44,204 nt of DNA, from positions 1-44,204 of the forward strand of contig JAVCDJ010000058.1 in the NCBI GenBank assembly GCA_030765845.1, written 5' to 3'. How positions within the stretch are numbered: the first letter of the stretch is position 1; the number at the start of each line of letters is the position of its first letter. Positions 10,213 through 14,925 of this stretch are shown here, one piece after another. Origin of the DNA: Candidatus Stygibacter australis (GTDB taxonomy: Bacteria > Cloacimonadota > Cloacimonadia > Cloacimonadales > TCS61). Both the position numbers and the translations under genes were made by a program. A model generated the notes under the pieces. That model was not told where the DNA came from and searched no databases. It saw nothing but the letters and a program-made list of their open reading frames with translations.

Positions 10213-10926
10213 TTATTGATTAATTATGCTTTGAGCAGTTTTCTTATCATCCTCATAGGTGAAATGACTGATAATTCTAAAAGAATTATCCTTATCTACT
10301 ACTTTGGGGTAAGTTATCCGTAAGCAGGCAAGTTTATGTTCTGCAGATGTAAAGATATCTAATAATTGCTCGATCTGGATTACACTGAAATAATGAGAAT
10401 TTGCTGCAGTCCGCACATAAAGTAACTGATCCTCAGCAAAATCCTCATTTTCGATAGTGGCAACCAGTTGACTAAATGATAAAGAGTTCATTGGCTCATG
10501 AGCAGTAAAAGACTGAATGCTTTGAGTAGCTGGCTCAGTAACAACTATATTAGATTGGGGTTCAGGAGTCTGAGGATTATCAAATCCTGAGATATTCATA
10601 TTAACATTCACGCTTTGAGTTGATTCAGTTGTTGTTTTCAACTGAGTATTAGTCTCTGTTTTTGCTTCTGATTTACCATTTATCATATCTCGTATTTCTT
10701 CTATAAGCATACTTGCTTCCAGATATTGTCTTTTGGGTAATTGAGTTAGATATTCTTCCTCTAAAGATTTGAGCTTTTGAAGAATTGCTTTATTACGCGA
10801 ATCTGAAGCCATGGAAGAAGGATTGTTACCTTCTATTTTTGCTGAAAGCCCGGTACTCGCTGACTGGTCTTGTGCAAACACCGTAAGTACGCTTAATAAT
10901 ATAAGTACAATAAGATATCTTCTCAT
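10213..10926 (-). CDS. Exported DUF4476-domain protein
   Basis: I place the start at the ATG at 10926 (MRRYLIVLILLSVLTVFAQ), where GGAGGAACA precedes it and the product begins directly with a signal peptide; a longer frame to 10974 lacks this. The mature protein has a charged, probably helical stretch (residues 35-90), a Ser/Thr/Gln-rich linker, and a C-terminal domain of about 90 residues (FSQLVATIENEDFAEDQLL, SVIQIEQLLDIFTSAEHKL, then AYP-like ITYPKVVDKDN) that matches the DUF4476 pattern known mainly from Bacteroidetes-type genomes. Its function is unknown. It heads the operon with transketolase and lplA. Confidence 0.75.
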   Translation of the reverse strand: MRRYLIVLILLSVLTVFAQDQSASTGLSAKIEGNNPSSMASDSRNKAILQKLKSLEEEYLTQLPKRQYLEASMLIEEIRDMINGKSEAKTETNTQLKTTTESTQSVNVNMNISGFDNPQTPEPQSNIVVTEPATQSIQSFTAHEPMNSLSFSQLVATIENEDFAEDQLLYVRTAANSHYFSVIQIEQLLDIFTSAEHKLACLRITYPKVVDKDNSFRIISHFTYEDDKKTAQSIINQ

Positions 10927-11150
10927 TGTTCCTCCAAATCTTATTTTTATATTGCAAAAATCTATTACTACCACACATTGTCAAGAATTTCAAAAACCAT
11001 TTTTCCCCCTGAAATTAAATTATTTTCTACAACCAAGTGCATGTACACCGCAGAATATTTCCAGGTCGGGCGCAAACACGACAAACACCTCCCAACTAAG
11101 TCAGTCCCGATACATCGGGATGAACGGTACTCCGGGCAAGAGTTATGGAC

Positions 11151-11278
11151 GACGGAGTGACTTCACGACTGCGCGACTTCAGGACTGCATGAATTCAAGA
11201 CTGATAGACTGAAAGACTGCACGACTACAGGACCGTAAGACTGTGAGACTGAGGGACGGAGAGATTGAGTGACTTAAA
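11151..11278. repeat. Sixteen-unit degenerate tandem repeat, period 8 (GACTGNNN)
   Basis: The sequence can be read as 16 consecutive 8-base units with no gaps: GACGGAGT, GACTTCAC, GACTGCGC, GACTTCAG, GACTGCAT and so on to GACTTAAA. All units begin GA, most GACT, and the last three or four bases vary freely. It does not keep a coding frame. Confidence 0.85.
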
Positions 11279-11330: not shown

Positions 11331-11544
11331 TTGTTCGCGTTTGTTCGCGGCTAAAAAATCTTCACATTTAATTCTCGTCTTATACTTCTTAAGCTCGTTT
11401 TGTTCGTAATTGTTCGTTGCTTAAACTCTTACATTACATTTTTTCGTGTCATTTCGTGGTTTTCGTGGTCAAAAAAGTCTTACATTACATTATCCGTGTT
11501 CATCCGTGCAATCCGTGGCTAAAAAATTCTTACATTCAATTCTC
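11331..11544. repeat. Four imperfect units of a CGTG-triplet repeat, about 50 bp each
   Basis: Each unit has two or three copies of a 9-10-base motif (TTGTTCGCG, TTTCGTGGT or ATCCGTGTT types) followed by a tail like GGCTAAAAAATTCTTACATT. Units lie at about 11331-11377, 11394-11440, 11441-11491 and 11492-11544. Units 3 and 4 abut directly. An inverted fragment (CACACGGACAAACACGA) lies at 11574-11590. Confidence 0.8.
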
Positions 11545-11635
11545 CCTCACTCAATCCATAAAAACCCATGCCGCACACGGACAAACACGAAAAAAAAAAT
11601 GAGGGTGTGAAGATGAGAGGGTGTGATTAGGCTCA

Positions 11636-11739
11636 GGGGCAGACCAATGTATCTGCCCTGAATCTTCTGTTTATATATTATCTAAAGAGGGCAGACACGT
11701 GGGTCTGCCCCTACCAGTTGTTCAATCAAACATTGAGAG
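11636..11739. repeat. GGGGCAGAC hairpin element, copy 1
   Basis: Two hairpins: GGGGCAGA/TCTGCCCT (11636-11659) and GGGCAGAC/GTCTGCCC (11689-11710), then a conserved tail CTACCAGTTGTTCAATCAAA leading to CATTGAGAGG. It sits 167 bases before the start of the first barrel gene; the second copy has exactly the same spacing to its gene. Confidence 0.85.
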
Positions 11740-11802: not shown

Positions 11803-13239
11803 ATGAAAAGAACAGGATCCGTATTGATGTTAATCACATTATTGTTGCCCGTAATGCTTATGTCTGTAGAATATAATTTAAATAATTATCAGGAGCCGGA
11901 TAATTTTGAACATGGTTTAAATTTCGGCTTATATAACGAAGGATATGTAAATAGTAAAGAACATGAAGATAGATTATATCATTCTTCTAATATTTCAGCG
12001 GACTATTTTGCGAGGAAATACAGCAGGCAAAGTATTCTCAATATATCCTTATTTACGGATTTGGATTATGAAATATATTCTGTAAATACAACTGATAGTC
12101 TGCAATATGATGCCGATACTCCTCGATTTAATTCACATTTTGAGATTGGTGCTGAGCTTCGACAATATTTATATAAAGACTTATTTTTCAATATAGATAC
12201 ATATTGTTATGCACATAATTCCTATTCAGATCGCGATTCAAAAAGTGCAGAATATAATTCAACAGGTAACGGGAAAGGATATTTCTATACAGAATCTGCT
12301 GAGATTGGATTAGGATATGGAAGGGTAGAAGATGTGAGCAAAGCCTGTCAGGCAGTGGAGATATTATCTGAGCTTGAGAAAGCTGGACTATTGGCAAGGG
12401 AAGTAAATAAAGAAGATATCGAAAGCCTGGCAGATCGGCTGGTGCAATTGACAACTTTACGTCTATTTGACAGCCGTCTGGTCAACATGGAAAAAGTCCG
12501 TCAGATAAACAGTGAGCTTTTTGAGCAGGGATTATTATCAGGAGATAATATTGAAAGCTTTGTGATAATTATGGATTTATATGATCTGGGCACAGTTTTT
12601 AGTCGCAAGAGTGGCTGGGATATATATCCTGAATTCGGAATTGACAACACAGATGGTTATAGTGAAGGTTATTTTGAAAAAGTGTACATAGATACTATTC
12701 ACAGTGATTATACTCGAGACTCTGAAAGTAATAATGGATCAAGGACATATCAACCGGGATTGAGTTTTAATTATTATCAGGTATTAAGCAGTAAATGGCA
12801 ATTGGAAGCGAGTGGAAATTATGGCTATTTCTGGAGTGAATATGATAATGAAGAGCTTGAAATACGGCGGTCTGAAACATCCCCTGATTCCACCTGGGAA
12901 AAAAGAGAATATGATAAAGAAGGCTATAGTGTGGAATTGAATTTGGAGTTAAGCTGGTATCCGGATACTCGAACAGAATTCTGGTCTCGATTGAATTATG
13001 ACATTTCTGATAGTGATTATGATGAGGTATTTCAGAGCGATGACGAAACAGAAAACTACACAAAGAGTTACAGTGAGTTTGAAAGGGTTTATTATATCTC
13101 GGCTGGGATAAACTATTATTTTTCGCCTAAGTTGAATTTACTATTCAAGTTATCATATAGAGGTGATAATGATGAAAGTTTTTACACTTATAATAGCAGA
13201 TTCAAGTACGATCTTAGAGTGAGGTATTATCTGTTTTAG
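11803..13239 (+). CDS. Outer-membrane beta-barrel protein, tandem copy 1
   Basis: A 478-residue protein with a signal peptide (MKRTGSVLMLITLLLPVMLM) and alternating strand patterns with many Tyr, Ser, Asp and Glu. It ends in RVRYYLF, a C-terminal aromatic beta-signal as expected for a barrel inserted by the Bam machinery. Residues about 185-265 form a predicted helical insert (ILSELEKAGLLAREV, LADRLVQLTTLRLFDSRLV, MEKVRQINSELFEQGLLSGD) that is nearly identical in the paralogue downstream. I do not recognise a named family; passive pore or surface protein is a guess. AGGAG lies six bases before the ATG. It belongs to a 1686-base tandem duplication that includes the upstream hairpin element. 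Confidence 0.85.
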   Translation: MKRTGSVLMLITLLLPVMLMSVEYNLNNYQEPDNFEHGLNFGLYNEGYVNSKEHEDRLYHSSNISADYFARKYSRQSILNISLFTDLDYEIYSVNTTDSLQYDADTPRFNSHFEIGAELRQYLYKDLFFNIDTYCYAHNSYSDRDSKSAEYNSTGNGKGYFYTESAEIGLGYGRVEDVSKACQAVEILSELEKAGLLAREVNKEDIESLADRLVQLTTLRLFDSRLVNMEKVRQINSELFEQGLLSGDNIESFVIIMDLYDLGTVFSRKSGWDIYPEFGIDNTDGYSEGYFEKVYIDTIHSDYTRDSESNNGSRTYQPGLSFNYYQVLSSKWQLEASGNYGYFWSEYDNEELEIRRSETSPDSTWEKREYDKEGYSVELNLELSWYPDTRTEFWSRLNYDISDSDYDEVFQSDDETENYTKSYSEFERVYYISAGINYYFSPKLNLLFKLSYRGDNDESFYTYNSRFKYDLRVRYYLF

Positions 13240-13488: not shown

Positions 13489-14925
13489 ATGAAAAGAACA
13501 GGAACCGTATTGATGTTAATCACATTATTGTTGCCCGTAATGCTTATGTCTGTAGAATATAATTTAAATAATTATCAGGAGCCTGATAATTTTAATCATG
13601 GTTTGTATTTCCACTTGAGTAACGATGGAAGTATTTATACCAGAAATGACGTAGAAAATTCAAATCAAAATGCAGATCTTTTTGTGAACTATTTTGCCAG
13701 GCAATACAGCAGGAATAATATCCTGGATATATTTTTTACATCGGAATTAAGGTATGATAATTTATCATCTACTACAAAAGATAGTCTGCATATTGAAAGG
13801 GATGCTCCTCAATTTAATTCATATTTTATGATTGATGCTGAGCTTCGCCATTATTTGTACAATGACTGGTTTATCAATATAGAGGCATTTTGTTATGCGC
13901 ATAATTCTCTTTCAGATTCAGATACAAAGAAGATAGAATATCATTCAACAGATTATAGGGAAAGTTATAGCTATAGTGAATCCGGAGTGATTGGATTAGG
14001 CTATGGGCGGGTAGAAAATGTGAGCAAAGCCTATCAAGCGAGGGAGATATTATCTGAGCTGGAGAAAGCTGGACTATTGGCAAGAGCAGTAAATAAAGAG
14101 GATATTGAAAGCCTGGCAGACCGACTGGTGCAATTGACAACTTTGCGTCTATTTAATTACCGTCTGATCAACATGGAAAAAGTGCGTCAGATAAACAGGG
14201 AGCTTATTGCGCAGGGATTATTATCAGGAGATGAAATTGAAAGCTTTGTAATCATAATGGATTTATATAATATGGGTTCAGTTTTTATTCGCAAGAGTGG
14301 CTGGGATATATATCCTGAATTCATAATTGACAACTCAGATGGTTATAGTGAAACTTGTTATGAAAAAGTGTACTCAGATACTATTTACAATGATTATACT
14401 CGAAACTCTGAATGTAATAATGGCTTAAGGTCATATCAACCGGGATTGAGTTTTCATTATTATCAGGTATTAAGCAGCAAATGGCAATTAGAAGCGAGTG
14501 GCAGTTACGGCTATTTCTGGAGTGAGGAAGATTCTAAATATACTAATATATACCATTATGAAACACACTCTGATTCCTTCTGGGAAACAAGAGAATATGA
14601 TATAGAAGGCTACAGAGTGGGATTGAATTTGGAGTTAAGCTGGTATCCGGATACTCGAACTAAATTCTGGTCCAGTATTGATTATGATATTTCTGATAGC
14701 GATAATGATATTACATACCAGAACCTTGACGAAACAGATAACTACACAAAAAGTTACAGCGAGTTTGAAAGGGTTTATTATATCTCGACAGGAATTGACT
14801 ATTATTTCTCACCTAAGTTGTATTTTCAATTCAAATCAACATATGGTGATGATAATGGTGGAAGTATTTTCGATTACAAGGACAGATTTACCTACAAAAT
14901 GAGCGTGTTATATTATCTGTTTTAG
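13489..14925 (+). CDS. Outer-membrane beta-barrel protein, tandem copy 2
   Basis: Same length (478 residues) and architecture as the preceding gene: an almost identical signal peptide with one change (Thr6 for Ser), a conserved helical insert around residues 185-265, and a terminal aromatic beta-signal (SVLYYLF). The two proteins differ most between residues 40 and 165, around 330-350, and in the last strands, while EYNLNNYQEPDNF at the start and YYQVLSSKWQLEASG in the barrel are retained. The upstream AGGAG ribosome site and 167-base leader are shared. Most likely a duplication followed by divergence of exposed segments. Confidence 0.85.
   Translation: MKRTGTVLMLITLLLPVMLMSVEYNLNNYQEPDNFNHGLYFHLSNDGSIYTRNDVENSNQNADLFVNYFARQYSRNNILDIFFTSELRYDNLSSTTKDSLHIERDAPQFNSYFMIDAELRHYLYNDWFINIEAFCYAHNSLSDSDTKKIEYHSTDYRESYSYSESGVIGLGYGRVENVSKAYQAREILSELEKAGLLARAVNKEDIESLADRLVQLTTLRLFNYRLINMEKVRQINRELIAQGLLSGDEIESFVIIMDLYNMGSVFIRKSGWDIYPEFIIDNSDGYSETCYEKVYSDTIYNDYTRNSECNNGLRSYQPGLSFHYYQVLSSKWQLEASGSYGYFWSEEDSKYTNIYHYETHSDSFWETREYDIEGYRVGLNLELSWYPDTRTKFWSSIDYDISDSDNDITYQNLDETDNYTKSYSEFERVYYISTGIDYYFSPKLYFQFKSTYGDDNGGSIFDYKDRFTYKMSVLYYLF

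Follow-up and report, generated by a model that had tools for sequence, protein, structure and literature searches.

The sixteen octamers at 11151–11278 of the window (the whole 44,204-nt stretch of Candidatus Stygibacter australis DNA that was analysed) are a member of a dispersed intergenic family of octamer arrays with the unit GACT-D-M-D-N. We tentatively read this family, with rather less than even confidence, as a dispersed non-coding intergenic satellite of one Cloacimonadota lineage, in which the GACT box is kept by a putative reader protein. Degenerate intergenic repeats of short unit length occur widely and lack an explanation. In this family, constant and variable positions fall cleanly apart, few genomes across the phylum as a whole carry the arrays, and at one site an array is present in one congener and missing from another. 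With these features, one can test directly whether the arrays serve as a protein platform or grow as selfish DNA by a sequence-specific step, and the array grammar, together with a link to a protein family termed P0001, provides concrete handles on the family.

The array and its surroundings

With GACT reading on the + strand, the array consists of 16 octamers in a row, free of indels and in strict 8-nt phase. This bears out the initial annotation, which had described a sixteen-unit octamer row with exact 8-base spacing: self-identity is 0.66 at lag 8 and lag 16, and 0.11–0.35 at the remaining lags from 4 to 20. A chance origin was rejected, as the array scores 38 against 7 for the best of 60 first-order Markov shuffles of the window, and as the array accounts for 14 of the window's 15 matches to GACTNNNNGACTNNNNGACT (≤2 mismatches), where shuffles give a mean of 1.83 and a maximum of 8. 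The core, given earlier as GACTG, is corrected to GACT (exact in 11 of 16 units, with GAC in 14), since the fifth base is G in just 11/16 units. Nor is the other half nearly random, as had been supposed; its tails are restricted, with positions 5–7 reading not-C, A/C, not-C in 14 of the 16 units. The pattern first noticed at this locus is real and non-trivial.

Several simpler roles were considered and set aside. A coding role is ruled out, because the 8-nt units pass through all frames and contain TGA, TAA and TAG. RNA structure was dropped as well: folding of the window array against shuffled sequence gave no signal (z −0.38 and +0.94), and among eight strands folded from four arrays the + strand of L010 was the sole outlier (z −2.89). 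An Rfam search of the window returned no match. Avoidance of a restriction site as the cause of not-C at position 5 is not convincing, GACTC being only mildly low in the window (0.68). As a separate observation, GGCC and CTAG are strongly under-represented over 1–44204 (observed/expected 0.20 each), and window GC is 0.371.

On its left the array is entered from a module, GAACGGTACTCCGGGC..GGACGAC (11121–11153, +), and at 11331–11536 (+) lies a mosaic of other short degenerate repeats, TTGTTCGCG, TTCGTAATTGTTCG, TTTCGTGG and ATCCGTG, joined by CTTACATTACAT-like connectors. The array and its right-hand side can be aligned to stretches L008 and L010 at about 72% over 335 and 306 nt, respectively. 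The nearest gene, which encodes a DUF4476 protein (10213–10926, −), has the array upstream of it; its likely start, chosen by eye, is the ATG at 10926 behind GGAGG, in a frame open from 10974. Divergent from it, on the other side of the array, is a gene for a 478-aa protein (11803–13239, +) with no Pfam match, which stands in tandem with a paralogous 478-aa gene at 13489–14925, the two N-termini being nearly identical. An inverted repeat at 11635–11712, AGGGGCAGACC..GGGTCTGCCCCT, with 25-nt arms that are 88% complementary and 28 nt apart, looks like a small palindromic element.

A dispersed family with a shared grammar

The genome-wide search for further arrays that the initial annotation had proposed was fruitful. 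In the window's own genome (G000; 3.82 Mb, 278 contigs), four GACT boxes with ≤2 mismatches gave 138 matches, against 23 for a reversed control. G000 has at least 15 arrays. We looked at 15 (12 stretches) in G000, 17 in G001, 7 in G002 and 16 in G015, the stretches having been picked for holding arrays or P0001-like genes; G000, G001 and G002 belong to one genus (g1). Fifty-three of 55 arrays in these four genomes are intergenic, that is, outside predicted open reading frames; the 55 include one G015 array that is close to a plain GAGA/AAGA repeat. Array sizes in the family run from 5 to 42 units.

The grammar GACT-[not C]-[A/C]-[not C]-N was read from 177 units in G000, 142 in G001 and 43 in G002, and the tail rule is obeyed by 140/144, 116/129 and 36/41 of their GACT units, respectively. 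Position 8 alone is close to free, with 0.05 bit of information in G000, 0.06 in G001 and 0.24 in G002. The tails form a limited vocabulary: G000 has 41 distinct tails against 62.2 expected from independent columns (minimum 56), words such as GATA, GCAC, TAAA and TCTG come back in unlinked arrays, and 25 tails are common to G000 and G001, where they account for 89 of 142 G001 units. A variant core, GACG, is present as well, position 4 being G in 11% of G000 units. A+T at positions 5–8 in G000 is about 0.56, compared with 0.63 for the window.

The arrays have polarity, as indicated by a preferred AAA-type last unit at the 3′ end. In G000 it closes 8 of 15 arrays, against 11 of 159 other units (p=1.8e-5); the figures are 3/12 against 3/120 in G001 (p=0.01) and 2/4 against 2/27 in G002 (p=0.07). 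Furthermore, AAATAATAAACTCTTCTCTT or a near variant follows four to five G000 arrays (L001, L002, L004, L008 and, more loosely, L009 +). A bias in orientation to genes seemed present at a rough first look and was dropped: over all arrays the ratio to the nearest gene is 24:17 (p=0.35), which is not significant, and within 300 nt it is 22:10 (p=0.05). Inspection of the flanking genes revealed no common function. In a further stretch, L007:196–275 holds a second half-fixed octamer array, with a core around GTGA, directly before an GACTGAGT array; it is perhaps a sister family with a different core.

The split between core and tail

Mean within-array pairwise identity, taken over 27 arrays of at least 6 units, is 0.93 at positions 1–4 and 0.45 at positions 5–8, which does not fit an ordinary microsatellite, with all positions alike in conservation. 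A related reading is an ordinary degenerate simple-sequence repeat, formed by polymerase slippage on a short unit and then decaying. Such repeats are common in bacteria, as the consulted parts of two reports describe (PMC4692102, PMC4679880), and it is favoured by the way in which several kinds of short degenerate repeat are patched together between the genes, by duplications whose length is a multiple of 8 and by a decayed array in G002 (the last two described below). We nevertheless consider it unlikely, because decay should strike all eight positions alike and because simulation hardly ever produced the split. The target box for the simulations (core ≥0.90, tail ≤0.50) was set after the data were seen, and the models are simple. 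Mutation with homology-dependent slippage reached it in 0 of 2592 snapshots at low slippage rates, and a slippage-only rerun over a wider rate range in 15 of 4640, giving 15/7232 single-array snapshots in all; copying among a pool of 20 arrays reached it in 0 of 540 snapshots, even with a slightly wider tail limit of 0.55. When 95–98% of core mutations were rejected, 147–210 of 290 snapshots per setting fell in the box at slippage ratios of 1 and 10, and 23–42 of 290 at a ratio of 100; with 80–90% rejected, 7–59 of 290 did so. The models thus disfavour sequence-blind slippage of a simple kind, and ordinary slippage alone is an unlikely origin of the arrays. The earlier proposal that a fixed core and a variable half do not come from ordinary slippage holds up, in that the split is real and simple slippage or copying models hardly give it.

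These models do not separate selection for binding from growth that recognises GACT. If a protein recognised a 4-bp box at each 8-bp step, this would account at once for the half that stays fixed, the limits on the spacers and the unchanging pitch. Recognition along the row would be what maintains the box, the most likely reader being a small DNA-binding protein that coats the array, one dimer to each unit. Such a reader would tolerate a restricted set of 4-bp spacers and might work by analogy with ParG on parH, while the arrays would grow and shrink by whole units and spread along with neighbouring repeat modules.

The same split between core and tail would result from a growth enzyme with specificity for GACT. 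The arrays might then be a selfish satellite, in which an enzyme or a replication intermediate acts at GACT by nicking, priming or strand exchange, copying is confined to units whose core is intact, the tails drift within limits and the cell gains no benefit. As an account, such sequence-specific selfish growth falls only a little short of protein reading, and the vocabulary common to unlinked arrays and to species, the neighbouring genes without a common theme and the polarity with its favoured 3′ end unit are all consistent with it. Symmetric copying models with anchors of 4–6 nt gave no split, so this account has to assume in addition that the anchor is sequence-specific; on balance we hold a purely selfish satellite to be possible, though somewhat unlikely.

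Turnover of units and the orthologous locus

Neighbouring units share identical tails more often than expected (17/161 at lag 1 and 27/145 at lag 2, against 3.9%), which indicates that blocks of 8n are duplicated. To that extent the reading in the initial annotation is not borne out: slippage-like duplication of whole units does occur. In G001, the arrays of L154 and L159 have their last five units in common, including the same core changes, and diverge further 5′. Both the block duplication and this shared 3′ end fit the selfish satellite just described.

The comparison of the locus among relatives that had been suggested gave a divided answer. Genes beside the locus are 73.5% identical at the nucleotide level in G001 and 83.4% in G002, and the transketolase of the window is 87% identical to that of G002, 79% to that of G001 and 68% to that of G015. 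The orthologous site of G001 carries a 12-unit array on the same strand and in the same intergenic region, with the phase kept and with other tails. At the orthologous site of G002 the left module is kept (97% over 33 nt) and no array follows it. The array is therefore not indispensable there: in G002 it is dispensable at this locus or has been turned over. About 650 nt further out, G002 has a decayed 8-unit array, with two cores intact and six of eight mutated. The absence of the array at the G002 site and the decayed cores nearby are counted against the protein reading, as are the overall orientation to genes, which shows no significant bias, and the flanking genes, which share no evident function. 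Besides the core–tail split, the points in its favour are the intergenic position of 53 of 55 arrays, the scarcity of matches to the reversed pattern in the phylum, the G001 array with other tails at the orthologous place, the arrays that precede some P0001 genes, the favoured AAA-type last unit and the inverted GACTA pairs of other phyla.

Distribution in Cloacimonadota and beyond

A sample of 124 Cloacimonadota genomes was searched. A stricter pattern matched 9 of 124, with 1 of 124 for a reversed-pattern control, and degenerate arrays of the GACT grammar are present in 6 of 124 (G000, G001, G002, G015, G046 and G104), the matches in G054, G065 and G119 being simple repeats. A looser pattern adds G007 and G011, which have arrays with another vocabulary, and G045, which has a simple repeat. 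The contig with the G104 array (L311, G104:C34) carries an amylomaltase, named by eye, that is 71% identical to that of G000, and the same bin holds a second amylomaltase copy of g11 type (51%). With two types in one bin, the array-bearing contig is probably contamination; it looks as if it came from a relative of the window's genus, by a binning error or a recent transfer. The G046 contigs are nearer g11 than g1 by 4-mers, and among the g11 genomes examined, with G104 set aside, G046 alone has arrays or P0001.

A scan of species genomes outside the genus gave at least 18 degenerate arrays among the 119 stretches listed. Among these listed matches, L021 alone clearly fits the GACT grammar, with L080 at the limit (0.80); L021 is from Candidatus Cloacimonadota bacterium Tobar13.5m-G52, whose genome gives the same matches as G001. 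In viral stretches with six exact boxes, none of 33 loci was degenerate.

The P0001 protein family

Several arrays adjoin the gene of a 347-aa protein, P0001, for which searches of Pfam, PHROGs and NCBIfam gave no match and a search of the PDB only E values of 0.22–0.73; weak, sub-threshold HMG-box scores of distant members are not relied on. A phage or plasmid origin was dropped, as no match was found in viral contigs, plasmids or phages. P0001 is multicopy, with 18 matches in G000 (16 when fewer candidates were scored), 14 in G001, 7 in G002 and 14 in G015, and copies are frequently truncated, broken or at contig ends. At E<1e-30, P0001 occurs in exactly the same 6 of 124 genomes as the degenerate arrays, and four more genomes have marginal matches (E 1e-7 to 6e-4). 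The nominal p of this 6/6 agreement is 2e-10 with kinship ignored, three of the genomes being one genus.

The 5′ end is visible in seven g1 copies of the closer subclade, and in four of these an array stands 10–26 nt before the start codon, just before the ribosome-binding site (L010:659–1702, L011:12–1055, L216:2527–3555 and L217:2249–2965). The broken copy in L221 has array remnants only, and L214 and L215 are N-terminal fragments at contig ends (58–59% identity) with no array; four further g1 copies were left out, their 5′ ends being absent from the assembly. In G015, copies L230, L231 and L232 have arrays 0.5–0.9 kb upstream, and L233 has none within its 151 nt of upstream sequence. No adjacent array was found at the other, more distant copies examined. 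Before some P0001 genes, the number of units could tune expression from next to the ribosome-binding site.

The link between arrays and P0001 is suggestive. It raises the idea that the arrays are an end, a 5′ leader or a target of mobile P0001 genes, left behind after gene loss, for which the co-occurrence in the six genomes, the many and often damaged copies, the arrays directly before some g1 subclade genes and the 79–89% nucleotide identity between genera at and around the gene may be cited. We find this explanation quite improbable. Most arrays, including that of the window, have no P0001 nearby, and the more distant paralogues lack a neighbouring array; the G104 contig is probably contamination, the P0001 fragments of G046 are closest to an array-less paralogue, and the g1 genomes, all from a single genus, do not count as independent cases. 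No borders, terminal repeats or target duplications were found for P0001 as a mobile unit. As a side observation, in L264 (G046:C133) P0001-like fragments lie on both sides of a cassette of three proteins, named by eye from their translations as ATPase/histidine-kinase-like, HNH-like and DNA-methylase-like, which could be a defence system.

Comparison with known systems

A search of open-licence papers, covering titles and abstract openings, found no GACTNNNN arrays in Cloacimonadota. The comparisons below draw on parts of the cited papers, and within these nothing described comes closer than the heptameric intergenic repeats GGGNATC and GGGGA(C/T)T of Xanthomonas and Nostoc (Rehm et al., 2015, PMC4692102). 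Like the GACT arrays, they are short tandem units with a strong non-coding bias at many loci, differ in length and sequence from one relative to another where the flanking gene pair is the same, and have no known role according to that text. They differ in having a 7-nt, G-rich, quadruplex-capable unit with four units preferred, whereas the GACT arrays have a period of 8, no GGG in the core, and a fixed half joined to a restricted half. The TAACTGA direct repeats of Beggiatoaceae, Cyanobacteria and Bacteroidetes (MacGregor, 2015, PMC4679880) likewise form many intergenic tandem arrays, some near start codons, with a patchy distribution; their whole unit, however, is fixed, and they occur mostly in two to six copies and mostly directly upstream of start codons.

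In Geobacter metallireducens, GTTGCTYN and related octanucleotide classes, with 48 sequences aligned, have been proposed as regulator binding sites (PMC2700814). These are also tandem octamers with one degenerate end, but they comprise four units, are paired on opposite strands and have insertion sequences at a fixed distance; the GACT family of the window is longer and in a single orientation. The parH centromere of plasmid TP228, bound by the ribbon-helix-helix protein ParG (PMC7308502, PMC5016525), resembles the arrays as a row of degenerate tetramer boxes with short spacers (PMC7308502). In the accounts available, parH is one site with AT-rich spacers and with boxes both direct and inverted (PMC7308502, PMC5016525), whereas GACT arrays are dispersed over at least 15 places in G000 and their spacers are not AT-rich, and the window array lies between a DUF4476 gene and one for an unassigned protein, with no parA-type linkage. 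Membership of the parH class fails on spacers, number and neighbourhood, and a nucleoid or partition protein, named as a possible binder in the initial annotation, gained no support. RemA was rejected as a binder, because its protected regions of 7 bp spaced by 3 bp, as given in the part of PMC8481266 consulted, differ from the 8-bp pitch.

CRISPR arrays have repeats of about 20 nt or more and unique spacers of similar length. A CRISPR array is ruled out here by the 8-nt unit and the recurring 4-nt tails.

Inverted GACTA array pairs in other phyla

Inverted pairs of degenerate GACTA arrays were found in L063, L079, L080, L081, L109, L115 and L129, and also in L059 and L128. Seven pairs were analysed, from five Anaerolineae genomes, one acidimicrobial and one deltaproteobacterial genome. 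In hairpin register, their cores agree at 215 of 230 positions and their tails at 34 of 138, which is chance level; a protein site therefore fits better than full-length hairpins. A broader and more speculative picture, in which we place little confidence, would have a lineage-specific protein, reading GACT at every 8 bp, coat dozens of dispersed intergenic arrays and so organise the chromosome or control how strongly genes close by are expressed, with the arrays themselves spreading and being reshuffled in the manner of selfish DNA; the Anaerolineae GACTA pairs would then be a second use, independent or shared. L109 and L129 have their pair in a shared gene context, between the genes of the diol dehydratase small subunit and its reactivase, and the surrounding sequence is 74.8% identical at the nucleotide level with tails that differ. 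The GACTA pairs follow the same principle as the GACT arrays, the core being kept and the tails exchanged.
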